Positions 12,418 to 29,215 of a stretch of 64,000 bases of DNA are shown piece after piece; the first letter of the stretch is position 1, and every line of letters begins with the position of its first letter. Where the stretch lies: contig NZ_CP040908.1 of NCBI RefSeq assembly GCF_013488205.1, positions 2,085,876 through 2,149,875 of the forward strand. Direction: 5' to 3'. Position numbers and translations under genes: made by a program. The DNA is from Empedobacter falsenii (GTDB lineage: Bacteria > Bacteroidota > Bacteroidia > Flavobacteriales > Weeksellaceae). The notes beneath the pieces were generated by a model. The model saw only the letters and a program-made list of their open reading frames with translations. It did no database searches and was not told where the DNA came from.

Positions 12418-13926
12418 TTAACCTAAGTCATTAATAACCTCTCTGAAACTACCTAAAGCAGATTCTATATTATCTACAATTTCTTGTGCTAAAATATCTG
12501 GTTCAGGTAGATTGTCTAAATCCGTTAGAGATTGATCTTTTATCCAGAAAATATCCAATGATGTTTTGTCTCTTGCGATGATTTCATCATAGGTATATTT
12601 TCTCCAACGACCATCAGGATTTTCCTCCGACCAAGTTTCCGCACGGTTGTAAACATTCTCTGAATTGTAACATTTCACGAAGTCTTGTAAATCAGCTTCG
12701 CTTAATGGCTTTTTCTTTAAGGTATGGTGTACATTCGTGCGGTAATCGTAAATCCACACTTCTTTCGTTTGTGTTTCTTTCGAAGCAGCTTTATTCGTGA
12801 AGAATAGTACATTAGCCTTTACTCCATTGGCATAGAAAATACCAGTAGGTAAACGTAAAATCGTATGTAACTCTGTAGTTTCTAATAATCGCTTACGAAT
12901 TTCTTCTCCTGCACCACCTTCAAACAATACATTATCGGGTAAAACGACTGCTGCTTCCCCATTAATCTTTAATAGGGTTTTGATGTGCTGCAAAAAGTTT
13001 AACTGCTTGTTTGATGTTGTCTCCCAAAAGTCTTGACGGTTGTAACTCATATCGTCACGCTCTACTTCGCCTTCTTCATTGGTTACCGTATACGAACTTT
13101 TCTTCCCAAAAGGTGGGTTTGCTAAGACATAATCATAAGCATTAGCATCAGATGATATTAAGGCATCCGACGACTTAATTAATGGTTCTCCATCAATTTC
13201 ACCAATACCGTGTAAATACAAATTCATTAAACACATACGACGCGTACTTGCTACGATTTCGTTTCCGTGGAATGTTGCATCTTTTAAGAATTTCTTCTCA
13301 TCCCGGTCTAGAGATTGCTTGCTTAGGTAATCATAAGCCGCTAAAAAGAAACCACCCGAACCACAAGCAGGATCGATGATGGTTTTCATAGGCTTCGGTT
13401 GTACACATTGCACCATAATATTAATTAGTGGACGCGGTGTAAAATATTGCCCAGCTCCTGATTTGGTGTCTTCTGCGTTTTTCTCTAATAAACCTTCGTA
13501 GATTTTCCCTTTGATATCCGACCCCATTGATGTCCAATCTTCTTGATCAATTAGGTTGAGGATACGCAATAATTTAGCAGGATCTTGAATCTTATTCTGG
13601 CTCTTGGCATAGATTTGGCCTAACATTCCTTTTTCTGAAGAAAGCGTACGTAATAACTGCGTGTAGAAACTTTCTAATTCGGCACCATTTTTAGCACGTA
13701 AACTTTCCCAATCGCATAAATCACCGTTGGGGATTTCATTTCCATCTATGTCTTTGATTCGCGGTAATTGAATGTTTTTGCTATACGGTGGTTTGTTTAA
13801 TTCATCCACCATTTTAAGGAACAATAAATAGGTAATTTGTTCCAAGTAATCTCCGTAACCTACGCCATCATCACGCATGACATTGGCAAGGTTCCATATT
13901 TTTGATATAATTGCTGACTCAGTCAT
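12418..13926 (-). CDS. hsdM: type I restriction-modification DNA methyltransferase subunit HsdM
   Basis: 502 residues. N-terminal helical HsdM domain (~1-145, with LFLKMVDEL), then an N6-adenine methyltransferase: SAM-binding motif DPACGSGG at 185-192 and catalytic NPPF at 270-273, followed by GEAAVVLPDNVLFEGG. It methylates adenine in the sequence chosen by HsdS and is also needed for restriction by HsdR. It is the last gene of a seven-gene operon (2-nt gap from the DUF262 gene upstream), while hsdS and hsdR are at the other end; five to six kilobases of other defence genes separate hsdM from hsdS. Length is normal for the family. Confidence 0.95.
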   Translation of the reverse strand: MTESAIISKIWNLANVMRDDGVGYGDYLEQITYLLFLKMVDELNKPPYSKNIQLPRIKDIDGNEIPNGDLCDWESLRAKNGAELESFYTQLLRTLSSEKGMLGQIYAKSQNKIQDPAKLLRILNLIDQEDWTSMGSDIKGKIYEGLLEKNAEDTKSGAGQYFTPRPLINIMVQCVQPKPMKTIIDPACGSGGFFLAAYDYLSKQSLDRDEKKFLKDATFHGNEIVASTRRMCLMNLYLHGIGEIDGEPLIKSSDALISSDANAYDYVLANPPFGKKSSYTVTNEEGEVERDDMSYNRQDFWETTSNKQLNFLQHIKTLLKINGEAAVVLPDNVLFEGGAGEEIRKRLLETTELHTILRLPTGIFYANGVKANVLFFTNKAASKETQTKEVWIYDYRTNVHHTLKKKPLSEADLQDFVKCYNSENVYNRAETWSEENPDGRWRKYTYDEIIARDKTSLDIFWIKDQSLTDLDNLPEPDILAQEIVDNIESALGSFREVINDLG

Positions 13927-13928
13927 CT

Positions 13929-16250
13929 TTAACTTTTATATTCTGGAATTAAATTTTCATTTTTTAAATTGAATATTAAATCCTTTATTAATTTATTTAA
14001 TTGCTCTAAGTTTTCTTTTAATGATTTATTTGTATCATAACTATAGCAATTTGATTTTCTATATTTTATAAAATCATTTTCTTTCCATTCATTGTAAGAA
14101 TTTGCAATTGCAAACTTTCTTAAATTTATCGTATCTCCCTTTTTATAAAAAATATCAATTGACCATATTCCTTGTTTTTCATAGACTAAATCAATACAAA
14201 CTCTATCTGTATCTTCTAATTTTGTAATGATCTCATTATTCTCTACCACAAGATCTGTAAATGCAATTGAGTCTCCAAAATTATTAAAACTAATGCTCTC
14301 GGTCTTTGAAATTTCTATAAAAATTTTAGTTACTAAATAAACATCCCATTGTGAAGGATTTATGTTATTTAATAATTTAATATCATAAAAACTATCTGAC
14401 CAAATGAATTGATTTGATTGTGTATGTTCTAAAACCGATTTGAATTTTATGAAATAATATCTCCAATCTCGCTCGTCATTGAATAAAGCTAATCTATCTT
14501 TATACGCATCCTTCAAAGATGTGTATCGCTTAGTTTCCCAATCCTTAATTATATTTAAAAATTCATCTTTATTCACTACTGAATTTAACCAAGCCCTTGA
14601 ATCGTGCATCAAAGCCCATTTTTCTTTACCTGCTGAATTTCCTGTATGAGTTGAAAAATCAAAATAACTTAGAATATATTTTCTAAGCATTTTGGATCTT
14701 AAATCATCAAACAGAATTTCTAAAATTTTGATTACAGCATTCGCTTTATCCTTTGGAAAATCAGATTTTAAATTAAAATCAATTAGCTTAAATAAAATAT
14801 CTGTTCTGCCTTCTAAAAACCTGTTTAATTTATCATCATAATACAATTCTTCAATTGGATGATTAATACTTTCTTCAAGTGAATCTTTGATGTAATTTAT
14901 TTTATTGATTTCATGTTCTTTTCTAGGAATCTGTAAATGATTTAAAATACCAACTACATCATGCCCTTCACTTTTACTAATCCCTTCAAGAATTTGGTTT
15001 AAACGAACGGTAGGTTCATCTGCTACTTCTCTCGTATGCGAATAGTTTATTAAGAAATTTCGGAATAAACATAATTCTTTATCATTTATCTTTTGAGCAT
15101 TTAAATTCCCTTTCAAATACCAAAACCATAATGGTAAAACTCGAATTCTTAAATTCAAAGTTTTTAATGACTTGGTAAAGAAATCTTCAATAAAATGAAT
15201 TGGATTATCAATTTCAATTAGTACTTTTTTTAACGCTGAGAATGCTTTTGATAAAAAATCAATATCAAGATTTTCTATTTCATATATTTTTAATTTCTCC
15301 GATTGATATTCTATTTCCTTGTCAAAATTGCCCTCCAAATATTGTTTTAATACACTAGCATAATAAAGAAATAATTCAAAGCCTTGATCCGCATTTTCAT
15401 TAGTGAATTTATATTCAAAGAAAAAGTCTTGCCATTCTTCCCATAAGGCTCCTGCTTCCTTTTTACCTTCATTAGAACATTTTTCAATTAAATTCGCTCT
15501 CAACTTTTCCTGATGTGATAAATGGTATCCGCGACTGTTCATATACAGGTACAAACGTTCTCCCTGTGCACTAAGCTCAGTATCGAAATAATTGAACTCT
15601 ACATAAATTTCTACAAAATCAATTAAATCAATTAATTGATCATTCGAAAAACCAACTAATTGCTTCTCTAAAAATTCGAAATTATTTCTCAAATTCTGAA
15701 CCGTAATATCGTTGGTATATTCGATCTCAAAAAAGTTTTTATTTTGTCTATAATCTTTTCCTTGCAAAGTATCTTCAATAAAAAGACGCATAAATTCGTA
15801 AGCTGATTCACGAACTTTATAATCTACTTTAGGAAAATTATTATAATAATAAAGTTTTCTAAATACCTCTGTTTTTCCTGCCTTTGTGTACAACACTAAT
15901 AACAACAAATAAAACGTTGTGATACGTTGTTGCCCATCAATTAAAAAAAATTGTCCAGGTAATTGCTTATCGTGATAAGCGTATATAAACCCCATTTTTT
16001 GTTTAAAATGTAGCGTACTATACACTTGTTGTAAATGTTGAAGAATTGTATTATTAACTAATGTATCTCCATTTATACTAACAGATAGTTCAGCATTTTC
16101 TTTTTTATTCCAACGTTTCATTAATGATTCCCAAACCCTATTTACTTGATCTTCTTCCCAAACATAATCACGTTGTAACTCAGGAATTACTAATTGATCT
16201 ATTTCATTATGCGTTAGCAATTCTTTTAGACTGTATCTACCTGTTTTCAT
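13929..16250 (-). CDS. DUF262 (GmrS-like) protein without the HNH domain
   Basis: 773 residues. N-terminal DUF262 fold, related to ParB/sulfiredoxin nucleotide-binding domains: PELQRDYVW at 23-31 and the hallmark DGQQR at 105-109. The remaining ~600 residues are helix-rich; I see no DUF1524 HxxP-type HNH motif. DUF262 is the S half of GmrSD, a type IV enzyme that cuts modified phage DNA, where the domain binds and hydrolyses NTP. It overlaps the preceding DUF262-DUF1524 gene by 14 nt, so the two are translationally coupled and probably form one complex. Similar genes sit inside type I loci elsewhere (the rlo genes of Campylobacter jejuni). Confidence 0.8.
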   Translation of the reverse strand: MKTGRYSLKELLTHNEIDQLVIPELQRDYVWEEDQVNRVWESLMKRWNKKENAELSVSINGDTLVNNTILQHLQQVYSTLHFKQKMGFIYAYHDKQLPGQFFLIDGQQRITTFYLLLLVLYTKAGKTEVFRKLYYYNNFPKVDYKVRESAYEFMRLFIEDTLQGKDYRQNKNFFEIEYTNDITVQNLRNNFEFLEKQLVGFSNDQLIDLIDFVEIYVEFNYFDTELSAQGERLYLYMNSRGYHLSHQEKLRANLIEKCSNEGKKEAGALWEEWQDFFFEYKFTNENADQGFELFLYYASVLKQYLEGNFDKEIEYQSEKLKIYEIENLDIDFLSKAFSALKKVLIEIDNPIHFIEDFFTKSLKTLNLRIRVLPLWFWYLKGNLNAQKINDKELCLFRNFLINYSHTREVADEPTVRLNQILEGISKSEGHDVVGILNHLQIPRKEHEINKINYIKDSLEESINHPIEELYYDDKLNRFLEGRTDILFKLIDFNLKSDFPKDKANAVIKILEILFDDLRSKMLRKYILSYFDFSTHTGNSAGKEKWALMHDSRAWLNSVVNKDEFLNIIKDWETKRYTSLKDAYKDRLALFNDERDWRYYFIKFKSVLEHTQSNQFIWSDSFYDIKLLNNINPSQWDVYLVTKIFIEISKTESISFNNFGDSIAFTDLVVENNEIITKLEDTDRVCIDLVYEKQGIWSIDIFYKKGDTINLRKFAIANSYNEWKENDFIKYRKSNCYSYDTNKSLKENLEQLNKLIKDLIFNLKNENLIPEYKS

Positions 16251-18069
16251 TTACAAATTCGATTAAAGCATTATATGTATTTTTTATCCATAGTGAATTA
16301 GCATCCATATCCTCTGTTTCCCAAAACGTTAGGTTTTTAGAAAAAGTTAATGGTTCATCAGAAAGATTATGCAATATTTTCGCAACTGCGTTTACCGTAT
16401 GTGTAGGTACAAAAGACCCCATACTCATTAGACCTAATAATAATTCTCTTTTTTTGGGAAAAATATAGTTTTTTAACGTGCTATTATTTCCTCCTTCTAA
16501 TAAAGCTAAATTACCTAACTGATGTTCAGAAACATCATGTGAAACGATCGTTTTAATCTCTTCATCTGTTAATAAAATATTATGCTTAATCTTTTGGTTT
16601 AATTCTGGTAAATCACTTGATTTTTCAATAAACCATTCTTTATACTTGCTTACATCTTCTTCTGTCGCATCTGAGTTTTGTGGGTATATATGTTCAATAC
16701 TCCACTTGTTGTTGCGATAGGTATGAAAATCAAAACGATTCGACCAATCAATTACATGGATATCAAAACCTTTACTATCTTTTATTTTTACTAACGGGAA
16801 TACATTTAGCGCTAAAAATATTTTATCTAATTTAGATTTATCTTTTGGGACATTATAAACTAAATCTTGGATCTTTTTATTTTTAATAAAAAGCTGGTTA
16901 TAAAGATGTTGATATAATTTTTCTTTTAGATCTGAAACACCTAACGATAATATGTTATCTATGTTTCCACCAGTACAGGTATAAAAGCCCAATAAATTAT
17001 ACAATTCATTGTTCTTAAACCAGTTTCTTAATCGTTTACTAGTAAGGTAAATTTGATCTAATTGAATGTTTGCTTCTTCAAAATTTTGTAACCCTTCATT
17101 GTATAAATTAAATAGTTTATAGGTGTCGTTTTGCTCTTTTGTAATAGACAAATTATCATGAAATTTGTTAATGTGATCTAAACGTTCATCATTACCCTCT
17201 TTTACATTAGGTTTCAACGCATTTAATAAAGGATTTAACCCTAAAAAACCTTCCTTACTATTAACTAATTTATAATTATAAAAAAACAATTGATTTTGTT
17301 GTTCTGAACGAAGCCAATTGTCCATGTCATCCCAATTACGAGCTATTCTATTTCTCTTTTCTTGAATATGAATAAAATTATCGTCACCATTATCCTTTCT
17401 AGTTGATTTAGTAAACAATAATCCTTTGATTAGATAGAGGTTGTTTAATTCTACTTTATTATCATTAAGATTAGAAAATATTTCTTCAGCTGCTGTTGTA
17501 TCATCTTCTAAATTGATAATTATTTTTACTTTTTGACGGTAATAATTATAAAAAGCTTCTGCTTCCACCTTATCTAGTAATTCTAAAAAATTAAGAATAC
17601 ATTTTTTGGCGTGGTATAAATAAAAGATGTCTTGTTTTTTCTTTAAAATCTCATTTTCTTCATCGCTATCTTCGTCCATCAATATGATTTCCTCAAAAAT
17701 TCGACGATTGTTGTAACGTTCGTATTGAACAATATCTTTCGTTATATTATAAAAACCAAATGCTTTTTCAAAACAATAGAATAAAATACTAATTGTGGTT
17801 AGCCTTTGCTGTCCATCAATTACTTCAAGTAAATCCTTACATTCATCGTTACGTTTGATCGTAATGTATTGTAGGTAATATTCCTCTTGATTTTCAATAA
17901 ATGCTTCGTAAACGTCTGTTAAGAATAACGGAACTTGGTCATGTGCAGCATTCGATTTCCACTTATACCCTCTTTGATAAGCCCCAATGTAGTAATTAGT
18001 AGCTGCTAAAGTTTCTAATAACCCATCGGAAACAAATAACTCTTCCAGGTTATAAATAAATTCTTTCAT
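16237..18069 (-). CDS. DUF262-DUF1524 (GmrSD-like) modification-dependent endonuclease
   Basis: 610 residues. DUF262 N-terminus with YQRGYKW (31-37) and DGQQRLTT (85-92); C-terminal DUF1524 nuclease of the HNH superfamily with IEHIYPQ (458-464) and HQLGNLALLEGGNNSTLKN (516-534). Proteins with both domains are single-chain GmrSD types, which restrict phage DNA carrying modified bases, using the DUF262 part as NTP-dependent sensor and the HNH part as nuclease. The gene follows the Septu HNH gene by 34 nt and overlaps the next DUF262 gene by 14 nt. Both key motifs are intact, so it should be active. Confidence 0.88.
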   Translation of the reverse strand: MKEFIYNLEELFVSDGLLETLAATNYYIGAYQRGYKWKSNAAHDQVPLFLTDVYEAFIENQEEYYLQYITIKRNDECKDLLEVIDGQQRLTTISILFYCFEKAFGFYNITKDIVQYERYNNRRIFEEIILMDEDSDEENEILKKKQDIFYLYHAKKCILNFLELLDKVEAEAFYNYYRQKVKIIINLEDDTTAAEEIFSNLNDNKVELNNLYLIKGLLFTKSTRKDNGDDNFIHIQEKRNRIARNWDDMDNWLRSEQQNQLFFYNYKLVNSKEGFLGLNPLLNALKPNVKEGNDERLDHINKFHDNLSITKEQNDTYKLFNLYNEGLQNFEEANIQLDQIYLTSKRLRNWFKNNELYNLLGFYTCTGGNIDNILSLGVSDLKEKLYQHLYNQLFIKNKKIQDLVYNVPKDKSKLDKIFLALNVFPLVKIKDSKGFDIHVIDWSNRFDFHTYRNNKWSIEHIYPQNSDATEEDVSKYKEWFIEKSSDLPELNQKIKHNILLTDEEIKTIVSHDVSEHQLGNLALLEGGNNSTLKNYIFPKKRELLLGLMSMGSFVPTHTVNAVAKILHNLSDEPLTFSKNLTFWETEDMDANSLWIKNTYNALIEFVNENR

Positions 18070-18103
18070 AATAGTTTAATTGGAGGTTATTGTATTCTTA
18101 AAT

Positions 18104-18886
18104 TTATTTTAACCATCCTAATCCTGAGCTATAAATACAAGATTGTGCTACTGCTGAAAATGGTTGTGATTTATCTTTTAATTGAGCAATTTGATTAATT
18201 TTTTCTACAAAAAGTGTTTGTAAATGTACACTCACTTCTGTTTCTTCATTAGAAGCAATTTCTTGTGCTTCTTTAATTAGTTTGTCACATTTCTTCCAAA
18301 CTTTTGCCCTCTCTTCTATTAGTAATTGAAAATTCAAATTCAAAGTATCAATAGTATATACAACTCTCTTTTGATTCCATTCACTTAAATCTGAACAGTA
18401 AATAACTTCTCCATTTTCAATGAAATTTAAAAATCCGACATCACTTATTTTACATGGATCAAGTAAATAAATAATTTCATCACCAATAGGGCTTCTTTCA
18501 TCCAAACAAGGATATCTTCTAACAGCAAACTTATCATTTTTCCTTACATTCCCTGCACCACCACAATAGCGATAATTCAAATATTCAAAAGCTAACCACC
18601 AATAACCCGTCCGAGTAGTTCTATCGATTTCTTTAATCCTTCCCTTAGGTCGAAAATGATCAATATGCGCATGGGCAAAAGCATCTGCTGCTTCAGAATA
18701 CCAACATTTATTATTAGATAATGCTCTCAGATCATCTTTTAATTCTGTCCAAAGATTTGAATTATTATTTATTATTTGAAGTTTTTCCTCAAAATCTACT
18801 TCTGCACTAACTAAATCTTTAACAGCTTGGGCTCTTTCTAACCATTCATCAGAAGGCCTATAATTACTTAAATCAATAAATATCAT
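18104..18886 (-). CDS. ptuB: Septu-like HNH endonuclease PtuB (TIGR02646 type)
   Basis: 260 residues with the pattern of the TIGR02646 / retron-associated HNH family: Cys61-Trp-Tyr, then HIDHFRPKG at 74-82, and a downstream WLAFEYLNYRYCGG stretch. In Septu systems PtuB is the nuclease and is activated or released by the ATPase PtuA when phage attack. Here the start codon overlaps the end of the upstream ATPase gene by 4 nt (ATGA-type), the normal ptuA-ptuB order. The pair sits within the type I restriction operon. HNH residues are present; the exact Septu subtype cannot be told by eye. Confidence 0.85.
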   Translation of the reverse strand: MIFIDLSNYRPSDEWLERAQAVKDLVSAEVDFEEKLQIINNNSNLWTELKDDLRALSNNKCWYSEAADAFAHAHIDHFRPKGRIKEIDRTTRTGYWWLAFEYLNYRYCGGAGNVRKNDKFAVRRYPCLDERSPIGDEIIYLLDPCKISDVGFLNFIENGEVIYCSDLSEWNQKRVVYTIDTLNLNFQLLIEERAKVWKKCDKLIKEAQEIASNEETEVSVHLQTLFVEKINQIAQLKDKSQPFSAVAQSCIYSSGLGWLK

Positions 18887-20445
18887 AGTTGCCCTTTTTC
18901 TATTTTATCAATAATACTTAAGGCTATTTCTTCTTGCTTTTTAAGTTGCTCGTAACTGTATATTGTACTATGCTCTTCTTGTTCGTATTTTTGATAAGCT
19001 ACAGCAAACTTTTGATACAGTGGATCGTTAAATGGATTTGTAAAGCCTAATGTTTGTAATTCGTTATGTAATTGATTTAATTCGAACAATTCTTCTTCTG
19101 AAGCTTCATTATTAGCATTCTTAATTGCTAAACGGTTACGTTTTTCAATTTTTTGCAATGTTGGTTCATCCAGAGTAGATGGTAAACCAAATAATTCACT
19201 CTTTAAAATATTATCTACCCCCAAACCTTTAGGATCTACATCAGGTTGATTGGTAATGGTTCCATTCTCCGTTTTTGTAAAAATGCGAACTTCTTCTTTC
19301 ACTAAAGATCCAATTACTAACGGATCGTGTGTATTAATGAATATTTGTGTAGATTCAGGTTTTTGTACCACTTCTTCCAAATATTTCATATAATGCCACT
19401 TCCATAATGGATTTAGATGTGTATCTGGTTCATCTAACAAGATCAATGAATCTTCATCTTTTGTAAACTTTAATAAGCCTAGTACAGTCAGTAATTGCTG
19501 CTCACCCTCACTTAAATCTCTAAATGTAATGGATTGATCTACATTACGCTTTTGTACACGTATACGAACCTCTTCTAAAAGTTTAGAGATGTATGTACTT
19601 TCTAAGGCTTTAAATAATTCTACATTGGTGTTGTAATGATTCGCTAAACTTTCGATTTCTTGTTCCCCTTTTAAGTACAAGTATAATCGGTCTTGTGAAT
19701 CGTACTCTCTGAAATCTTTTCTGATTCTTTCAGCATTATAGATTGGAGCAAAACTTAAGTCCCATAAAATATTTAAAAATTCACGAACTAAACCTTTTGC
19801 TCCCCAAAATACATCTTCATTATCTTTTGCCCATTCTGGTTTTTTAAGAATGAATAGAACTGAATTAATATCTTCGATCCCTAACACATCCTTTAAGAAA
19901 TTATTAGTTGATTCGGTTTTATGCGTATAAAATCCTAAAAGAACAAAGTAAGAGTGCACTAATTGTACATAAAATAATTTACGTAACTCATCAATTTCAC
20001 TTTTGTTGAAATCTTCTCTAATTATTTTATCGTAAAATGTGTTTTGATGGTCCCAAAAATGTTCTTTTAATTTATTACTGATACCTGAATAGTAGGTAAA
20101 TACATATTTAGGCTGAAACTGTTTTTTATTTTCTACAGTGAAAAATTCTTTTAAACTTAATGATTTACCATCGACAGTAATGGCATATTTTTTATTTTCA
20201 AATACCACCTCAATCATTGTATTTTTTATTTGGTATTTGATTTTGTATTCAAAATTAGGATATGAGCGTTTTGTCTCTGTATTTAAATCTAAATGTTTGA
20301 ATATAAGAACAAGCGCTTCGATGAAGTTAGATTTTCCAGTAGCATTCTGCCCTAGCAGTACCGTAATCATCTTCTCTTCGTCTATATCAATTTCAAAATC
20401 GGTTAAATTTTTATATGCTTTAATTTGAACCTTATCAATTCTCAT
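18883..20445 (-). CDS. ptuA: Septu-like AAA ATPase PtuA
   Basis: 520 residues, SMC/ABC-type AAA ATPase. Walker A GQNATGKS at 32-39, signature LSEGEQQ at 311-317, Walker B LILLDEPD at 334-341, and switch His in THD at 372-374. The region between Walker A and the signature is an all-helical insertion of ~150 residues. Together with the following HNH gene (4-nt overlap) this matches Septu, in which PtuA senses infection and controls PtuB. AAA genes of the same look in type I loci of Campylobacter are called rloA. Start is 3 nt after the hsdS stop codon. Confidence 0.87.
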   Translation of the reverse strand: MRIDKVQIKAYKNLTDFEIDIDEEKMITVLLGQNATGKSNFIEALVLIFKHLDLNTETKRSYPNFEYKIKYQIKNTMIEVVFENKKYAITVDGKSLSLKEFFTVENKKQFQPKYVFTYYSGISNKLKEHFWDHQNTFYDKIIREDFNKSEIDELRKLFYVQLVHSYFVLLGFYTHKTESTNNFLKDVLGIEDINSVLFILKKPEWAKDNEDVFWGAKGLVREFLNILWDLSFAPIYNAERIRKDFREYDSQDRLYLYLKGEQEIESLANHYNTNVELFKALESTYISKLLEEVRIRVQKRNVDQSITFRDLSEGEQQLLTVLGLLKFTKDEDSLILLDEPDTHLNPLWKWHYMKYLEEVVQKPESTQIFINTHDPLVIGSLVKEEVRIFTKTENGTITNQPDVDPKGLGVDNILKSELFGLPSTLDEPTLQKIEKRNRLAIKNANNEASEEELFELNQLHNELQTLGFTNPFNDPLYQKFAVAYQKYEQEEHSTIYSYEQLKKQEEIALSIIDKIEKGQL

Positions 20446-20448
20446 GGA

Positions 20449-22143
20449 TTAGATTAATTTAATGGATACCTTTTTTCCATTCTTCACTTCAGTAATTTTA
20501 CCTTCCTCAGCTAATTCTTTTAACTTTAAATAAAAAGCATCGATATCCTCTCCATAAACAGAATTCTTCCATAATTGGGCGACAAGCATTTCATTGTTAT
20601 TTTCTGCTAAGAGTTGTAAAATTTCTTTCTTCTCCATCTTCTTTTTAGGTTTTCCTTTTATTATTTTCTTACTTGATTTATTAGCTTCTTTCTCGGCCTT
20701 AATCTTCTCCAACAACACAGCAGCCGGCTCGTAATCGGGTTCTTGCTGACAAGCTTTTATCTCTTCTTCAGTAAGTAATTTACCCTCAAACGCTTTCTTT
20801 AAGATAGATTGGCGCAAAGCTTCTGCTTGGCTAAGGCTATCTTTTATTTGCTGCTCTACCGCATCACAAACCGATAAACGAGCTTCTATTTCTTTGACGA
20901 TTTGGGCTTGTTCTTCGAGAGAACACAATGATAAATGAATACTTCTAATAGATTTTTTATCTATTGTCGGATTACCTACACCTTTTACATAACTATTAAT
21001 TTCTTGTACTTGCCTATTATTTTTTAAATGATAAGAAAGGTATTTATTATTAATATAGGTCGTTAATGAAAATAAATTCATAGCTAGCGAACAGGGTCTA
21101 TTAAGATGAGGCATTAAATAAGATTTGCCTGCATTACCAATTTTACCAAATAAAATTTCACCACCATATAATTTAGTTTTACTCAAAAAATTATACGCTT
21201 GTTCTGAAATAAATTTAACATCATTTCTAAAATCATTCTTTTCAAAATTTGTAGCTCTAATCATCAAAGCGTAACCTTCTTCATCTAATAGTTCAACATT
21301 ATCACGTAATGTTTCATATCCACCATTGGCGTGATAATCTGTTAAGAATTTTAAAATATCAGAAATTTGAACTAATTTCCACGAGTTTGGAAGTTCTTCA
21401 GAATCTATAAAATCATTTTTTGACAAATCACTTTTTGCAAGTTTTTTAGGTTTCTTACCTTCCTTTCCATTCTTTTCCCAAATAGTTACAGCTTCTTTCC
21501 AATCTTCTATTTGTTTTTCATAGTAAGCTTGACGCTGTTCTTCTATTTGAACTAACAACTCCTCCGCAGTCGGTAAATTCGTTTGCTTTTCTCTCCATTC
21601 TTTCGTCAACTCCCCCTCAAACGCTTTTTTCAAAACGGCTTGGCGGTAGATTTTGAGTTGCTCTTGTGCTTTTTTAAGGTCTGCAATTCCCGCATCCAAA
21701 CTCGAAAACAAGGCTTCGATTTTTTTGACGATAGCACGTTGCTCGGGAAGTGGTGGAAGTCCAAATCTTATCTGTGAATATTCAGAAATCCAATATCTTT
21801 TATGTGTTTCGGAACGGACTTTACATACTTGCATTACATTGAATAAAAATTTCAAATTAACCAAACTACTAGTAGGATTTAAAATTTTCATCGCAGAAGA
21901 TTTAACTTTAAACTTAAAGTTTACATATTGACTTGCTGTAGTAAAATCATCAAATATGATTGTCGGTAATTTATCAAATACTCCAAATTCTTCATTAGTA
22001 TAACCTTTGATAAATCCTTTACCTGCCGTCAAAACAGGAATAGGTAAACTATCACTATAGTTTTCCTCCTTAATTATATAATTAGTTGGTTGTTCGTAAT
22101 CAAGTAAATCTTCAAATTTACATTCTACCCAATCTTCTCTCAT
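20449..22143 (-). CDS. hsdS: type I restriction specificity subunit HsdS with a C-terminal extension
   Basis: 564 residues: target-recognition domain 1 (~1-130), conserved helical region with LPPLPEQRAIVKKIEALF (~131-180), linker rich in Lys/Glu (~190-245), target-recognition domain 2 (~250-415), and a second conserved region (EEQAQIVKEIEARL onward, ~417-470). After it comes a Lys-rich linker and a ~60-residue helix-helix-strand tail (EILQLLAENN...GKKVSIKLI) that looks like a winged helix and is not part of standard HsdS. The two recognition domains define a bipartite DNA target. Start codon overlaps the hsdR stop by one base (TAATG), so translation is coupled. Confidence 0.93.
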   Translation of the reverse strand: MREDWVECKFEDLLDYEQPTNYIIKEENYSDSLPIPVLTAGKGFIKGYTNEEFGVFDKLPTIIFDDFTTASQYVNFKFKVKSSAMKILNPTSSLVNLKFLFNVMQVCKVRSETHKRYWISEYSQIRFGLPPLPEQRAIVKKIEALFSSLDAGIADLKKAQEQLKIYRQAVLKKAFEGELTKEWREKQTNLPTAEELLVQIEEQRQAYYEKQIEDWKEAVTIWEKNGKEGKKPKKLAKSDLSKNDFIDSEELPNSWKLVQISDILKFLTDYHANGGYETLRDNVELLDEEGYALMIRATNFEKNDFRNDVKFISEQAYNFLSKTKLYGGEILFGKIGNAGKSYLMPHLNRPCSLAMNLFSLTTYINNKYLSYHLKNNRQVQEINSYVKGVGNPTIDKKSIRSIHLSLCSLEEQAQIVKEIEARLSVCDAVEQQIKDSLSQAEALRQSILKKAFEGKLLTEEEIKACQQEPDYEPAAVLLEKIKAEKEANKSSKKIIKGKPKKKMEKKEILQLLAENNNEMLVAQLWKNSVYGEDIDAFYLKLKELAEEGKITEVKNGKKVSIKLI

Positions 22144-24959
22144 TATGCTGCTAAAGCTTCGTTTAAATCATTAATAATTGTTTGCATCTCGTTGCCAAAG
22201 AGTTGGTACATTTTGCCACGTCCACCGTGTACATCAAAGGGGTTGTAATCCAGATCATCCATTTCCAAATGATAGGAATTTACGATATGTTCCTTGATCA
22301 TACGAAGCCAATCCATTTGCTCGGGCGTAAAACGGTTGTGCTGTCCGGCATTTTGCGCAAATATCCATTGCTTAAAATTGTCGTCCACCGTTTTGTCGTA
22401 GGCTTTTAGTTCGCTGTCAATCCCACACACGGCACGGATTAAAGATACTAAAGCTGTTAATTCATCTTTTGGCGCATCACTGTTGGTTTTACCCAAACTT
22501 TTGTAAGCATCCCAAATATGCAAAGGTGCAAATATCGGCTTTTCTAAGCGTATCTTCTCCATCAATTCCTTAATCATCTTGAAAGTAATTTCCCTTCTAC
22601 GATAAGGCTGATCGAAGAAAATAGATAAGGCCGTGATTTCGTTTTTGTTAGCTAACAGATATTCTTCAAAATCTTGTACCAAGGCATTTGCTTTATCGAT
22701 GGTGGTGGTATCCCATTCGGATTTTATAACCGTATCGATGTTGATATGGTCAATGATTTGCTCGTGTTGCTTACGTACATTATCGATGTACTCGTTTAAT
22801 TCACCATTGAAACTTAAAGATGCTTGTCGAATTAAATTTTCTTGGGCTTCTTCTCGAGCTTTTTCTTGCAAGAATGGCGTTTGCTCATCGACAGGTGTCT
22901 GCTGTAAGATGAGTAGCGCTGCGGTTTCTATTGCATCTGGATCAAAAGCATTAATTAATTCTTTAGTGATTTGCTTTAAGCTTTTACCCCCCGAAAGCTC
23001 CTTTATTTTAGCTCCTTCTTTTTCGGTAATTTGTTTATCCAAACGAATTAAACGATTGGCCAAAGAAAGGAATACATCTTCCTCGGCTACACCCATGGTT
23101 ACCGCACCTAATAACTCTTTCAGTGCTACTGTAGGTTTACGCTCTAGCGGACGGCTATCTGTTTTCTTGGATTTGGTCGCGCCTACTGCATCTATGATGA
23201 CAAAGTGATTTTTTACTCGTGCTTGCTTACTCACCAATTGCAATTTATCCGCATTGATCGTACGTGTACCACGCCCCTTCATCTGCTCAAAGTAATTGAT
23301 ACTCTTCACATCACGCATAAAGAGTAACACCTCCAAAGGTTTTACATCCGTACCCGTGGCAATCATATCTACAGTAACGGCAATACGTGGGTTGTAATCG
23401 TTTCGGAAACGATTCAGAACTGATTTTGGGTCTTCGTCAATTTTATAAGTAACCTTTTTACAAAAATCATTGCCTTCGCCAAACTCTTCACGTACAATAT
23501 TGATGATATCATCTGCGTGAGAATCTGTTTTAGCAAAGATTAATGTTTTAGGCACTTCGTATTCCGTACGATCGGCATTCCAACGGTCTGGATAAATAAC
23601 CTGTTCTAAAGCACGTTTGTATTCTTTGACAATGGTACGAATCTGCGAAACATTCACCACCGCTTTGTCCAAGTCGTTGCGTTTGTATTCCGTATCCTCG
23701 TCTTCTTGTTGCCAACGTTTGGCACGAGAGAGTTTATCACGACGATCTACATACCATCCCGATTCTATCAGTCCACCCTTTTGAGAAATTTCGGTTTCGA
23801 TCGTATATACTTCATAGGGTACGTTCACGCCATCTAATACCGATTCTTCGTAGGTATATTGACTGACTACATTTTCATTGAAGAAACCAAAGGTGCGTTT
23901 GTCAGGAGTAGCGGTAAGTCCTATCAAAAATGCATCAAAATAGTCCAAGACTTGTTTCCAAAGGTTGTAAATGGAACGGTGACATTCGTCTATGATAATG
24001 AAGTCGAATTGTTCTATGGGAACTTGCTCGTTGTATTCTACAGGAACAGCTTCTTTCTTGGCTAATTTTTGTTGTAACCAAGAAGATTGCTCGTTAGGGT
24101 TTTCTATATCGGCATTCTCGTCCATTTCTTCCCCTCGTAAAATAGAGTACATACGCTGAATGGTAGAAATACAGACCTGACTATCCGATGCGATAAAGCT
24201 AGAACTTAATCGCTGCACGTTATATAATTCTGTAAACTTACGATTATCGTCATTCGGTTGAAAAGCCATGAATTCTTGTTCGGCTTGTTCGCCCAAGTTT
24301 TTGGTATCCACTAAAAAGAGAACACGCTTCGCTTTGGCAAACTTCAACAAACGGTATATAAAGGTAGCTGCCGTAAAGGTTTTACCTGCACCGGTAGCCA
24401 TTTGAATTAAGGCTTTAGGTTTTGCTTGTTTGAAAGATTTTTCTAGATTATTAATCGCCATAATCTGAGCAGGTCGTAAATCTGTTTCATCTAAGGCAGG
24501 AATATCCAGAAGTCGACCACGCAATGATTTGTCTTTCTTTACCCATTCCAATAAGGTTTCGGGTTTATGAAAATAAAAGATTTCTCTACTACGAGCATTA
24601 GGATCACGGTAATCCGTAAAACGCGTAATGGTTCCTGTGCTTTCATAGACAAAAGGAATTGCTTCAGCCGAATTGAAGAACTTTAGCTTTGCTTCAGCAT
24701 AGCCTCTAGATTGATCTTCAGCCACCGTTAAACGATGTCCTTCATCTTCCCTTTTCGCTTCAATAATGCCCACAGGTTTTTGATTCACAAAAAGCACATA
24801 ATCAGCAGGACCTACTGAAGTAGTATATTCACGAACCGCAATACCTTTAGCAGCATTGAAGTTGATTTTATCTTTAGACTGAACCGCCCATCCCGCTTGA
24901 CGAAGCATTTCATCAATACGATCACGAGCAACTTGTTCTGGATTTTGGTTTATTGTCAT
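22143..24959 (-). CDS. hsdR: type I restriction endonuclease subunit HsdR
   Basis: 938 residues. N-terminal PD-(D/E)xK nuclease: D53 in PADYVLF and E67-A-K69 in GIIEAKR. Then superfamily 2 translocase: Walker A MATGAGKT at 187-194, DECH box in FIIIDECHRS (~320), LTATP motif, and helicase C with MKGRGTR (~565). C-terminal helical region (~650-938) binds the methyltransferase. The enzyme pulls DNA through while held at the HsdMS site and cuts far away. It is the first gene of the operon, so the upstream region 24960-25191 holds the promoter. All catalytic motifs appear intact. Confidence 0.95.
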   Translation of the reverse strand: MTINQNPEQVARDRIDEMLRQAGWAVQSKDKINFNAAKGIAVREYTTSVGPADYVLFVNQKPVGIIEAKREDEGHRLTVAEDQSRGYAEAKLKFFNSAEAIPFVYESTGTITRFTDYRDPNARSREIFYFHKPETLLEWVKKDKSLRGRLLDIPALDETDLRPAQIMAINNLEKSFKQAKPKALIQMATGAGKTFTAATFIYRLLKFAKAKRVLFLVDTKNLGEQAEQEFMAFQPNDDNRKFTELYNVQRLSSSFIASDSQVCISTIQRMYSILRGEEMDENADIENPNEQSSWLQQKLAKKEAVPVEYNEQVPIEQFDFIIIDECHRSIYNLWKQVLDYFDAFLIGLTATPDKRTFGFFNENVVSQYTYEESVLDGVNVPYEVYTIETEISQKGGLIESGWYVDRRDKLSRAKRWQQEDEDTEYKRNDLDKAVVNVSQIRTIVKEYKRALEQVIYPDRWNADRTEYEVPKTLIFAKTDSHADDIINIVREEFGEGNDFCKKVTYKIDEDPKSVLNRFRNDYNPRIAVTVDMIATGTDVKPLEVLLFMRDVKSINYFEQMKGRGTRTINADKLQLVSKQARVKNHFVIIDAVGATKSKKTDSRPLERKPTVALKELLGAVTMGVAEEDVFLSLANRLIRLDKQITEKEGAKIKELSGGKSLKQITKELINAFDPDAIETAALLILQQTPVDEQTPFLQEKAREEAQENLIRQASLSFNGELNEYIDNVRKQHEQIIDHINIDTVIKSEWDTTTIDKANALVQDFEEYLLANKNEITALSIFFDQPYRRREITFKMIKELMEKIRLEKPIFAPLHIWDAYKSLGKTNSDAPKDELTALVSLIRAVCGIDSELKAYDKTVDDNFKQWIFAQNAGQHNRFTPEQMDWLRMIKEHIVNSYHLEMDDLDYNPFDVHGGRGKMYQLFGNEMQTIINDLNEALAA

Positions 24960-25191: not shown

Positions 25192-26235
25192 TTATCTATC
25201 CTCAAACTCATAGTTTAAATTTTTGATTGTAATAAATGTCGAATCTACACAAACAAATGATTCGTCCGTAAATACTGCTAAATTATACCCCCCAATATGC
25301 ATAGCACTTTTATACTCTATCGCATCAAATCCTTTTAGTTTGATAAATTCGCACAAATATTGCGTTGGGAGATAATCAAGTAAAGAATCCTGTTTACGAA
25401 TAGGTTTTGATAATTCTGCTTGTAACTTAAGCAAATAAGGACGGATATTAATAAATTCTTCTAATTCAAAACCTTTTTCTTTGACCTCAAAAGGGCTTAA
25501 TTCTTCTATTTTATGTAAGGAGATAACTTGCAATGGACGATTCAGTTGAAAACTACCTACCGTTAAACAATCGTACAGGGATGATCGTGTTTCGTATATG
25601 GTTGTTTCTATACTATCAGACAAATAAAGGTATGGTATTCCTTGGGGATTTGCTCTACCCGATGTCGCATATTCTTTAGGAGGTCTACCCAACTCATTTA
25701 TTGGAAACCTAGTATTTCCAATTCTCGATCGATAAAAAATAGTCTCAGGATAATAGGTTTTCGCTAAACGCTCTAAAATACCTTCTATAAATTCTAAATC
25801 GATGGTTTTATTCAAGAAAAAACGATTTTTCTCCTTCAATTCATTGGCAAAAGTTTCCCATTGTAAAGCCAATGTTGCGGCACTTTCATCTGTAATATGA
25901 GTCTGAAAATCGACTGGCTGTTCAAATAATTCAGTAGAATATAATATACTCGTTCTACCAATTGCATAAACCAAATGCTTGATTGAAGTAAGATTCAAAT
26001 CTGGAGAGAACAATCCCTCCCAATAATGCTTCAAATGTTCATGCAATAGCATTTCACCCGACGAATTAGGTGCATACAACTCCAGTATTTCATCAAAAAG
26101 TTCTGTGAGTGTTTCACAATTGATTAAAGAAACAAAAGTACTTAAACAAAAATCACAATTACCTACTCCTACTTTATTCTTTAGTATATAATCTTGTAAG
26201 TAGGTATCTGAAAAGCAATTTACACAACAATTCAT
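25192..26235 (-). CDS. RES-domain protein with zinc-ribbon-like N-terminus
   Basis: 347 residues. N-terminus has C4-x2-C7 and C27-x2-C30, a likely zinc ribbon, then a helical region (~45-155) like the HEPN/RES N-terminal domains. The C-terminal half is a RES fold: FYRSR (R169/R171), IYETRSSL with E215, and EYKSAMHIGGYNLAVF with S310. RES proteins are related to ADP-ribosyltransferases; known members such as the Xre-RES toxins break down NAD+. It is the third gene after sce7726 and sce7725 (5-nt gap), which suggests a toxic effector of that operon. No Xre antitoxin is adjacent, so a plain toxin-antitoxin pair is unlikely. Confidence 0.75.
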   Translation of the reverse strand: MNCCVNCFSDTYLQDYILKNKVGVGNCDFCLSTFVSLINCETLTELFDEILELYAPNSSGEMLLHEHLKHYWEGLFSPDLNLTSIKHLVYAIGRTSILYSTELFEQPVDFQTHITDESAATLALQWETFANELKEKNRFFLNKTIDLEFIEGILERLAKTYYPETIFYRSRIGNTRFPINELGRPPKEYATSGRANPQGIPYLYLSDSIETTIYETRSSLYDCLTVGSFQLNRPLQVISLHKIEELSPFEVKEKGFELEEFINIRPYLLKLQAELSKPIRKQDSLLDYLPTQYLCEFIKLKGFDAIEYKSAMHIGGYNLAVFTDESFVCVDSTFITIKNLNYEFEDR

Positions 26236-26240
26236 ATCGT

Positions 26241-27173
26241 TTAAATTAAACCTTGTATTAACTGAATATGGTGCATAATACTTAATTTCTTTACAACACC
26301 TAACCCCGGATAAGCTTGAGTGTTATAATAGTCCCTAAATTTATCAATGGCAAAACTCGTTAATTGTTTTTGATCAACAAAAGCGATTAATTTTTCTAAT
26401 GCTTCAAAAAATTTACCCGCAGGATTCTCGCGTCCTTCATTACTATCTGATACAAAATGAGCAACTTTTATATCATCGCTTCCTTCTTCTTTATATGTTA
26501 AATGGATAGCTACTGCAAATGCAGCTCCTCCAGTCTCAGAATAATCTTTTCCTATTACTTGATAATCAGAAAATCCTACACAACCTTCGTCTTGATAATA
26601 CATATAATCAGAAGAAAAGACTTCGAAAGAAATATCAAGATAAGCTTTATTGTTCGATAAACGATTAAAATAATCATTCAACATACAGACATTTCCCCTC
26701 AATTTTCTTCTCATAGCAAACAAATGAGCAATTTGCACTACATGATAAAGACAATGATTAGAACTAGAAAAAGAGTGTAACGCATCTAAATCACTCACTT
26801 TATTGAGATGGACAAAACTAAAACCATTTGTATCATAATGATTATCTGCAATAATTGTTTTTATTCTATCAAACGCCCTATCACTAGATATTATAAAAGA
26901 AGGAATAAGATTTGTATAACCTTGAGCTTGTAATTGATTAAAAAAAGTAATTAAAGAAGAGTTATTTGATTTGAAATCACCTACTTCTGGATTCAAAATA
27001 ACCTGAACTTTAATATTATTCTTTGCTAATACATCTATTGCTGTTTTGAGAGAAGCTGTATTCATTTTTACAGGTTCTATCAAAGGAATTATTTTTGAAG
27101 AATCTAATATCGGAGCGAGCTCCCTTAAGGCTAATAATTCAAATTGTTTACCTCGTAAATATGGGAAATACAT
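26241..27173 (-). CDS. sce7725 family protein (beta-protein-like)
   Basis: 310 residues; the start YFPYLRGKQFELLALRELA and the following IIPLIEPV are hallmarks of the sce7725 family, whose members usually sit directly after an sce7726 gene, as here (11-nt gap). The protein looks like an alpha/beta barrel-type fold with repeated beta strands (QVILNPE, SFIISSDRA, SFVHL). Function is not established. The recurrent pairing with a predicted nuclease and, here, a RES protein points to defence or DNA/NAD processing, by inference. Family call is fairly safe; role unknown. Confidence 0.75.
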   Translation of the reverse strand: MYFPYLRGKQFELLALRELAPILDSSKIIPLIEPVKMNTASLKTAIDVLAKNNIKVQVILNPEVGDFKSNNSSLITFFNQLQAQGYTNLIPSFIISSDRAFDRIKTIIADNHYDTNGFSFVHLNKVSDLDALHSFSSSNHCLYHVVQIAHLFAMRRKLRGNVCMLNDYFNRLSNNKAYLDISFEVFSSDYMYYQDEGCVGFSDYQVIGKDYSETGGAAFAVAIHLTYKEEGSDDIKVAHFVSDSNEGRENPAGKFFEALEKLIAFVDQKQLTSFAIDKFRDYYNTQAYPGLGVVKKLSIMHHIQLIQGLI

Positions 27174-27184
27174 ACTACAAAATT

Positions 27185-28066
27185 TTATACCTTTTTCATC
27201 AGGTTGTTCTGTAGTGTAAGATAAGAATTTTTTGTTAATTTTTGATGATAATAAGAGTAGTTGTAAAACTTGGGAAATGCCCCTTCTTCTATCTCTATAT
27301 TTTTTGCAAACGAAATACGTTCTTTAAGAATTTTATGATACTGCTTTTGTACTTCTTGCTGTGTAAAATTCAATAAAACATCTAAACATGCTGTATACAA
27401 ATAAACTGGAGTTGCATCTGGAACAAACCCTACCATATTTTTTACGAGTTTTATGTATTCTGGCTTGCGCAAGGTTGCCATCATAGTAGGAATATCAAGC
27501 AATTCATCCACAAAAGTAGCTTTTCTATACTCTACCAATTTTAACTCATCTGTAAGCGCAATGATACCAACTGTCTCTTCTATTTTGCTCGAATATTTTT
27601 CGATCAAAGTATAATGGGTAACTAAATAAACCTCTGTAAATGCTTTATAATAATTTTCTATTTGCGATTGAAAACGTTCTAAACTATCTAACTCTGTTTT
27701 AATTTCAAAAACTTTATTTGTTCCGTTCACAATCACCATATCAGCAATTGAATCTTGTATTCTAAATTCGTTTAATAAAACAGTGTCATCTAATGAATAG
27801 TGATGAAGTACAAAATCATTTAATAAACTTGTTTTATATATATATTCGTGACGATAGTCTTGTTCTAATATAGAATAACCATAAGCAATAAGCTCACTTA
27901 ATGTAGTTGGTTGTTCTTGTACAATAGAATCCCATTCAATATATTTTTTCATTTGTCGAATATAAGACGACTGATTACTATCCAAAGCTATTTTCTTAAA
28001 AGCAGCATGGTTAATTAATCGAGCGATTCCTCTTAAATTCGAAATATGTAAAGGATGAGATTGCAT
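27185..28066 (-). CDS. sce7726 family protein, PD-(D/E)xK nuclease-like
   Basis: I set the start at 28066 (MQSHPLHISN, 293 residues). An in-frame ATG at 28105 lies upstream of a good promoter -7 element and is less likely. The middle holds a PD-(D/E)xK core: E100 in LLNEFRIQDS, D109 in IADMVIV, and E121-I-K123 in VFEIKTE, followed by a helix RFQSQIENYYKAF, which is the usual order for this fold. Family members pair with sce7725 genes. First gene of the minus-strand operon sce7726-sce7725-RES. Nuclease activity is predicted from intact motif residues. Confidence 0.8.
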   Translation of the reverse strand: MQSHPLHISNLRGIARLINHAAFKKIALDSNQSSYIRQMKKYIEWDSIVQEQPTTLSELIAYGYSILEQDYRHEYIYKTSLLNDFVLHHYSLDDTVLLNEFRIQDSIADMVIVNGTNKVFEIKTELDSLERFQSQIENYYKAFTEVYLVTHYTLIEKYSSKIEETVGIIALTDELKLVEYRKATFVDELLDIPTMMATLRKPEYIKLVKNMVGFVPDATPVYLYTACLDVLLNFTQQEVQKQYHKILKERISFAKNIEIEEGAFPKFYNYSYYHQKLTKNSYLTLQNNLMKKV

Positions 28067-28106
28067 AAGACAAAGGTAAAAAAACCTTACATATTTGGTA
28101 AACAAA
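28066..28106 (-). promoter_or_regulatory. promoter of the sce7726 operon, possibly leaderless
   Basis: On the minus strand TACCTTTG (28071-28078) matches the Bacteroidota -7 consensus TAnnTTTG exactly; a TTTG lies at 28103-28106, with a 24-nt spacer that is longer than usual. The ATG at 28066 is 4 nt after the -7 element, so transcription would begin at or next to the start codon. Confidence 0.5.
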
Positions 28107-28225
28107 GTTTACATTTTATCAAAATCAAACTCCTATCCAAAAATATTTACGGAACTTAAAATTGCTTTTCATTAATCAATAAACTAATTTAGTTCATTCC
28201 AATACAACAACATATAATCTAGAAA

Positions 28226-29215
28226 ATGATTGAAACTTCTATCACATTATTAATTAATCGCAAAACTGATCTTGATTTAATTCAAAATATAATCATAAAT
28301 AGTAGAATTGATGTTCCAATTTATATGGTTGAGTACGAATTTCACATTCAAATTAACTTTACAAGCGACTATGAACAATGGGAACTTGAAACAGAAATAG
28401 TAAAAGCATTGCCTGATTATGAGTTTAGTTATGGCCCTGATAAAGGACATAAAGAAGCGAGAATTCAGCTATCAAGATATCAATCTAGTTTTTCTACTGA
28501 TGGCTGGGGACGAAGAATTGAAGATCCTCTTGATGAGACGAAATACCTTGTTAAGAAATCGAAAACAAAATCAGAAAGATTTAACTCAAAAATGAAAATT
28601 TTATTTGACAATGTTGAACAAACATATTATATCAATATTGTTGAGGGGATAAACGAAAAAACAAATGAAGAAGGTTATATACTTTTAAATGAATTTAAAA
28701 ACCGTGTAACCGAAGGAGATATATTAATTCATAAATTATATAAATCACGTCACGATGCATTTCTGATTGGACAGCAACAAATGCAAAAAACTGTTAACGT
28801 GGATTATGAAAATTTTAAAGCTGAAAAAAAGAAAATAATCAGAGCTGAACAGAGAATTCCTAGAAAAATAGTTAGAAATTTCATTAATTCTTGTAATAAA
28901 AATGATTGTACTACAATACTCAATAATCTTTCTGAAAATATATATTATGAAAAAAGAAAAAAATGGAGAGCAGAATATAGTGTTGAAAATCTAACAAATT
29001 TCAAAGAATATATTCTTTCATCTGAACAAGATATTTGTTCCAAAAATTTCATAATTAGATCAAGTTGGGAAATCAAGTTACCTTTTATAAAAATTGGCGT
29101 AAAGTTTTTTCCCCACCCAAATGACAATAATTTCAATTCACTTGAATATAGAAATTTTACTTTTAAAGTAGAGAACGAAAAAATCACACAAATAATTGAA
29201 GAAAAAAATGGATAA
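28226..29215 (+). CDS. hypothetical protein, possible NTF2-like C-terminus
   Basis: 329 residues, not recognised. The first ~90 residues alternate strand and helix and contain a conserved-looking LPDYEFSYGPDKGHKEARIQL stretch. The middle is charged, with a KSRHDAFLIGQQQ segment. Residues ~212-325 (IPRKIVRNFINSCNKNDC ... EYRNFTFKVENEKITQIIEE) have the helix, long curved sheet and length of an NTF2/SnoaL-like domain. No signal peptide or membrane segment. It is transcribed away from the sce7726 operon. Base use is as AT-rich as its neighbours. Function unknown. Confidence 0.55.
   Translation: MIETSITLLINRKTDLDLIQNIIINSRIDVPIYMVEYEFHIQINFTSDYEQWELETEIVKALPDYEFSYGPDKGHKEARIQLSRYQSSFSTDGWGRRIEDPLDETKYLVKKSKTKSERFNSKMKILFDNVEQTYYINIVEGINEKTNEEGYILLNEFKNRVTEGDILIHKLYKSRHDAFLIGQQQMQKTVNVDYENFKAEKKKIIRAEQRIPRKIVRNFINSCNKNDCTTILNNLSENIYYEKRKKWRAEYSVENLTNFKEYILSSEQDICSKNFIIRSSWEIKLPFIKIGVKFFPHPNDNNFNSLEYRNFTFKVENEKITQIIEEKNG

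Follow-up and report, generated by a model that had tools for sequence, protein, structure and literature searches.

The gop-beta-cII module of satellite phage P4 protects E. coli against lambda and P1 (Rousset et al. 2022, PMC9122126). Gop is toxic in the absence of beta, and the two form a toxin-antitoxin pair (PMC9122126); a literature search for 'gop-beta' returned nothing beyond this P4-satellite paper. A protein related to the P4 antitoxin is found in another system, PD-lambda-2, where it is required for lambda defence and not for toxin neutralisation (Vassallo et al. 2022, PMC9519451). RES proteins, on the other side of the comparison made here, are mostly known as the toxins of toxin-antitoxin systems (PMC11535050). 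NatT, one such toxin, phosphorolyses NAD+, and a 2024 study of it stated that bacterial immunity had not been linked to any RES toxin-antitoxin system, the known NAD-targeting immunity using TIR and SIR2 domains (PMC11535050).

We analyzed a 64,000-nucleotide stretch of DNA from Empedobacter falsenii (hereafter, the window), which belongs to a genome of 3.76 Mb in two contigs. It contains a co-directional operon in which genes of the sce7726 and sce7725 families are followed by a RES gene. The relevant features are as follows.

27185..28066, minus strand: sce7726-family protein, 293 aa from an ATG at 28066, first gene of the operon
26241..27173, minus strand: sce7725-family protein, 310 aa, predicted TIM barrel, candidate sensor/antitoxin subunit
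25192..26235, minus strand: RES-domain protein, 347 aa, candidate effector
12418-24959: type I restriction operon adjoining the 3' side of the RES operon, a compact composite defence island
28098-28112, no strand assigned: perfect palindrome GTAAACTTTGTTTAC (GTAAAC-TTT-GTTTAC), 32-46 nt upstream of the sce7726 ATG

A preliminary description of this DNA had proposed a three-gene operon with gaps of 11 nt (sce7726/sce7725) and 5 nt (sce7725/RES) that adjoins a restriction operon. The coordinates of the minus-strand open reading frames confirmed the operon and both gaps, and hsdR was found to start at 24959 on the same strand, 232 bp downstream of the RES gene. Within the restriction operon, two genes of the GmrSD/DUF262 type, together with a Septu-like PtuA/PtuB pair (PADLOC E-values of 2e-184 and 7e-94), intervene between hsdM and hsdS/hsdR. 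Among the best 80 sce7725 loci that we collected (see below), the closest named relative was Empedobacter tilapiae, whose sce7725 is 96% identical to that of the window. Because the E. tilapiae locus (L020) bears two perfect copies of the palindrome (at 4063 and 4083, 20 bp apart) at the equivalent place, the palindrome upstream of sce7726 is possibly an operator for self-regulation, as far as its sequence and position can tell; it was not found at the other 79 genome loci searched. Divergent from the operon lies a gene for a 329-aa protein (28226-29215, plus strand) that gave no convincing family match. An open reading frame of 329 aa is also present at the equivalent place in E. tilapiae (L020, 2960-3949), and thus the window's protein may be part of the island.

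We then examined each of the three proteins. The sce7726 protein matched its family model NF033832 (NCBIfam) with an E-value of 9.3e-44 and 149.5 bits against a curated cut-off of 70. The PD-(D/E)xK residues proposed in the preliminary description held up in an alignment of 46 sce7726 proteins, in which D109, E121, and K123 do not vary and E100 hardly does; E74 and Q135 are likewise invariant. By these criteria sce7726 is a PD-(D/E)xK nuclease-like protein. It also matched the PADLOC model for cII (named 'cll') with an E-value of 1.7e-17, as did 46 of 46 relatives at the level of that model. Comparison of the sce7726 profile with P4 cII using hhalign gave a probability of 98.9 (E-value 1.4e-17), and tblastn detected the same relationship at 8e-6. 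The RefSeq record of P4 itself annotates cII as a sce7726 family protein and beta as a beta family protein. These comparisons indicate homology between sce7726 and the cII protein of satellite phage P4.

The link between sce7725 and beta was more distant. The window's protein clearly belongs to its own family (NCBIfam NF033831, E-value 8.6e-89; 298.3 bits against a curated cut-off of 60). Its profile gave a probability of only 0.6 against the single P4 beta sequence, a comparison in which no link was detected, and therefore an alignment of the Beta family was needed. Against such an alignment of seven members, hhalign returned a probability of 90.5 and an E-value of 1.3e-6 over 264 columns, with unrelated control profiles scoring 0.3 and 0.7. 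The Pfam model Beta_protein (PF14350) was matched by 7 of 48 sce7725 relatives, at best with 8.9e-6; the window's sce7725 by itself reached an E-value of 0.14 with this model and did not match the beta model of PADLOC. We regard sce7725 as a distant but reproducible homologue of the Beta family, which includes P4 beta and PD-lambda-2C, as judged from these profiles. The AlphaFold2 model of sce7725 (pLDDT 95.1) predicts a TIM barrel, and its structural neighbours are TIM barrels with Z scores of up to 11.8. A search of a viral structure library with this model did not find P4 beta; the best viral match was an uncharacterised protein of Gordonia phage Powerball (E-value 2e-8, TM 0.67), to which tblastn gave no identity. 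Sequence searches against solved structures yielded nothing useful for any of the three families.

The RES protein matched Pfam PF08808 with an E-value of 5.3e-16 and 59.5 bits (gathering score, 23.2). It is built of a Zn-ribbon-like CxxC..CxxC motif, a helical N-terminal region resembling HEPN/RES-NTD1, and a C-terminal NAD+ phosphorylase-like RES module spanning about residues 145-341. The HEPN_RES_NTD1 model (PF18870) aligned with the N-terminal region over residues 114-143 only and scored 18.8 bits, below its gathering score of 27.4. Among 46 RES proteins, R169, E215, and S310 are invariant, as are R171, Y204, and N318, and each of C4, C7, C27, and C30 is conserved in at least 90%, in agreement with the residues and the paired CxxC motifs that had been singled out beforehand. 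In the AlphaFold2 model (pLDDT 93.2), the nearest solved folds were MbcT (Z 13.6, rmsd 3.4, 156 aligned residues), NatT (Z 12.8), and other RES toxins. Alignment and model thus support an NAD+ phosphorylase fold with conserved residues for the predicted RES module. The genome of the window also encodes a separate short RES protein elsewhere.

We next compared the locus with the described systems. The preliminary description held that the sce7726-sce7725 pair had no assigned function, and the accessible portions of the literature naming sce7725 or sce7726 likewise yielded none. That statement overlooks a relative, because sce7726 belongs to the family of P4 cII and sce7725 is distantly related to P4 beta, and the P4 module was shown by experiment to be anti-phage (PMC9122126). 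Like gop-beta-cII, the operon has three genes, is carried by mobile elements, and includes a cII homologue and a probable, distant relative of beta. In the known system, however, the toxic partner that is restrained is Gop, of 133 aa, which here is replaced by a RES protein of 347 aa, and gop-beta faces a convergent cII gene in P4, whereas sce7726, sce7725, and RES are co-directional. The RES protein gave no PADLOC match, and no gop-like gene was present among the open reading frames listed around the operon. Since gop is absent, the gene orientation differs, and beta is matched only distantly (P4 beta has its own PADLOC model, to which the window's sce7725 does not respond), we did not assign the operon to gop-beta-cII; by analogy, it is a candidate for working like that module.

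PD-lambda-2 resembles the operon in that a Beta relative, PD-lambda-2C, is an essential defence component of this toxin-antitoxin-like system, and P4 beta matches the PD-Lambda-2_C models. PD-lambda-2 is otherwise composed of a HigB-like protein and an Xre-peptidase fusion, with neither sce7726/cII nor RES. The sce7726 protein, the RES protein, and the flanking genes tested did not match any PD-Lambda-2 model; identity with PD-lambda-2 was rejected on the basis of the unmatched HigB-like A and Xre-peptidase B components. The Xre-RES modules, such as MbcA-MbcT and NatR-NatT, share with the operon the RES effector fold, the conserved residues, and the predicted NAD+ phosphorolysis. They differ in that the RES protein here is extended N-terminally by a Zn-ribbon and a helical region and has two unrelated partner proteins. 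No Xre-type family (Xre/MbcA/ParS antitoxin) was matched among the adjacent genes scanned, and the partner is sce7725, of predicted TIM-barrel fold; thus, a type II toxin-antitoxin system of the Xre-RES kind was also rejected. A domain layout matching that of the RES protein, HEPN/RES-NTD1-RES with an N-terminal Zn ribbon, has been described (Anantharaman et al. 2013, PMC3710099). The proteins of this layout that we examined on other plasmids (L172-L174) are about 24-26% identical to the window's RES and are not accompanied by sce7725 or sce7726.

To see how regularly RES follows sce7725, we scanned GTDB species genomes with profiles and collected the best 80 sce7725 loci, nearly all of which have the order sce7726-sce7725-RES. 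Because this set favours close relatives, we also sampled whole phyla. In the Bacteroidota sample (395 genomes), RES followed sce7725 at 12 of 13 loci above the family cut-off, the window excluded. In Bacillota, the phylum of Drancourtella (398 genomes), an intact RES was present at 6 of 8 loci, the other two having a frameshifted RES in one case and a broken sce7725 without RES in the other, and in Actinomycetota, the phylum of Rothia (296 genomes), RES was present at both loci found; the starting genome was excluded from each count. Within the window's own family (148 genomes), 4 of the 7 other sce7725 loci had RES. A search of the same 395 Bacteroidota genomes that started from RES placed each of the 13 full-length subfamily members beside sce7725; the weaker matches were fragments or other RES types. 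The sce7725-RES unit was also found in E. coli, Salmonella, Moraxella, rhizobial mobile elements, and other phyla.

The three proteins have also diverged together. Pairwise distances among them were correlated across 64 loci (Mantel r of 0.85-0.87), a value that none of 500 permutations reached, and the loci lacking RES are scattered in a sce7725 tree dominated by RES-bearing loci, which forces at least four changes. Because of the phylum surveys, the search from the RES side, the distance correlation, and the tree, we regard RES as a regular, co-inherited component. The preliminary description had allowed for RES being a chance neighbour in this genome only; its recurrence in several phyla rejects that idea. 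Taken together, these data support the conclusion that sce7726-sce7725-RES is a real, recurrent, jointly inherited unit.

We also asked what happens to RES when sce7725 is damaged. Both genes were intact at 107 loci, and at 15 others sce7725 was intact but RES was missing or broken, whereas none of the five loci with a broken sce7725 kept an intact RES. The hypergeometric chance of this pattern is about 6e-5, a value to be read with the caution that the cases are dependent if whole loci decay. The pattern fits a RES protein that would be dangerous when unrestrained, and joint loss of sce7725 and RES could also reflect a locus that is decaying in general. A Glutamicibacter plasmid (L171, 3950-5053) carries an orphan RES gene of the same subfamily directly downstream of IS6100. 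It is full-length, its catalytic residues were checked, and it looks intact, and neither sce7725 nor sce7726 is nearby; this gene is therefore a counter-example to strict addiction.

Pairs of sce7726 and sce7725 without RES occur in prophages and in some chromosomes. Examples are L114, L115, L119, L122, and L127 on viral contigs, together with L016-L018, several of which lie beside phage genes. Since such pairs exist, the sce7726-sce7725 pair may carry a function of its own. One two-gene pair (L123, 6009-8322) adjoins a gene for a protein with an ATP-binding motif and a second gene, and these two neighbours look by eye like a PARIS-type pair. On a Listeria phage-labelled contig (L005) and an Enterococcus faecium plasmid (L009), sce7725 is followed by a GNAT gene, and the protein preceding sce7725 does not match the sce7726 profile; the contents of these two loci look alike, despite their phage and plasmid labels. 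At six further loci on plasmids and in Pasteurella phage Pmp11 (L165, L166, L167, L168, L169, and L175), a Beta gene faces a convergent sce7726/cII-like gene. The genes upstream of these differ, with a membrane protein and an ImmA/IrrE peptidase at L168, which hints at further effector swaps.

The unit is found in a mobile and defence-rich setting. Its Salmonella copy lies on an ICE, and other copies were found on conjugative, mobilizable, and other plasmids; in P. aeruginosa, one report places it on an integrative mobilizable element (PMC9394441). In E. coli the unit is chromosomal, present in 18 of 5,426 genomes, and about 97% identical to the Salmonella copy. Inspection of two E. coli strains placed it on an integrase-bearing island beside fim with a type I RM remnant alongside, and the island also carries a Kiwa-like KwaB or a SIR2/phospholipase-D pair. 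Chromosomal occurrence is frequent in Bacteroidota, and in the window's genus, Empedobacter, the unit is present in 2 of 14 genomes. Restriction and abortive-infection genes are among its neighbours in other genomes. The number of PADLOC families matched at an E-value of 1e-20 was 78 in 114 neighbour proteins and 28 in 114 control proteins from the genome of the window, an enrichment that is only suggestive because the families are non-independent and the control is a single genome.

The simplest reading, by analogy, would be that the control pair of the P4 module has been combined with an NAD+-destroying effector. We consider it probable that the operon is a three-part abortive-infection defence of toxin-antitoxin-like type, built on the beta/cII platform, in which RES replaces Gop as the killer. 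In this mechanism sce7725 and/or sce7726, as proposed here the two together, would hold RES inactive. The pair would detect infection, plausibly when sce7726 makes contact with the nucleic acid of the phage or cuts it, and the released RES would phosphorolyse NAD+; the loss of NAD+ would then be toxic and give suicide-type protection against the phage. The homology to an experimentally validated module, the fold and residues of the effector, the conservation of the unit, the breakage pattern, and the mobile, defence-rich setting argue for this mechanism, and the remote link of sce7725 to Beta, the pairs without RES, the orphan RES on the Glutamicibacter plasmid, and the non-neutralising Beta relative of PD-lambda-2 weigh against it. 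The idea put forward in the preliminary description, that of a candidate defence operon with NAD+ depletion as its outcome, is reasonable, and these results strengthen it.

Other readings share part of this evidence. The operon might be an addiction module for the maintenance of a plasmid or island, in which sce7725 and sce7726 neutralise RES and a cell that loses the element dies or stalls, without any sensing devoted to phage. Such a role would suit the carriage of the unit on plasmids, ICEs, and IMEs, the toxin-antitoxin membership of most known RES proteins (PMC11535050), and the failure of RES to persist intact where sce7725 is broken. However, addiction does not need two control proteins, let alone a nuclease-like one with an invariant catalytic-type constellation, and protection against phage is known from homologous modules that have this control pair or a relative of Beta; the frequent chromosomal occurrence in Bacteroidota also speaks against it, and we consider addiction unlikely. 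It is more doubtful still that the pair is itself the defence machine, with sce7726 cutting phage DNA under the guidance or licence of sce7725 and RES added as a second line should the first fail. The persistence of RES-less pairs in prophages and some Bacteroidota, the four or more changes that they require on the tree, the retention of the nuclease residues in an alignment that includes several such pairs, and the position of RES as the last gene, behind sce7726-sce7725, are what this reading would predict. But loci with RES form the great majority and are tightly co-inherited, and a toxin is already on record for this scaffold, since gop and beta of P4 are a toxin-antitoxin pair.

A role outside defence would lie in regulation or metabolism, with RES tuning NAD+ or ADP-ribose metabolites when DNA is damaged or the cell starves. 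RES proteins have been tied to persistence and stress (PMC11535050), and the Zn ribbon at the N-terminus might serve to bind nucleic acid or a regulator. We consider this role very improbable given the patchy, accessory distribution seen in Empedobacter and E. coli, the mobile-element and defence-island surroundings, and the homology to a tested anti-phage module, gop-beta-cII.

Returning to the abortive-infection reading, the operon would be related to the beta/cII defence platform but armed with RES, a candidate killer domain not yet credited with immunity. A broader proposal, which we put forward tentatively though with a chance not far from even, is that sce7726 and sce7725 form a multi-phylum infection-sensing platform that takes unrelated killers (the Gop membrane protein, RES, and perhaps others), and that the operon would be the first immune system shown to kill by NAD+ phosphorolysis of the RES type. 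The operon thus offers a concrete, testable candidate for RES immunity, one that is present in E. coli genomes. The placeholder names sce7725 and sce7726 are now tied to the little-studied gop-beta-cII, and therefore one experiment could inform both systems, including the roles of the Beta TIM barrel and of the nuclease-like cII.
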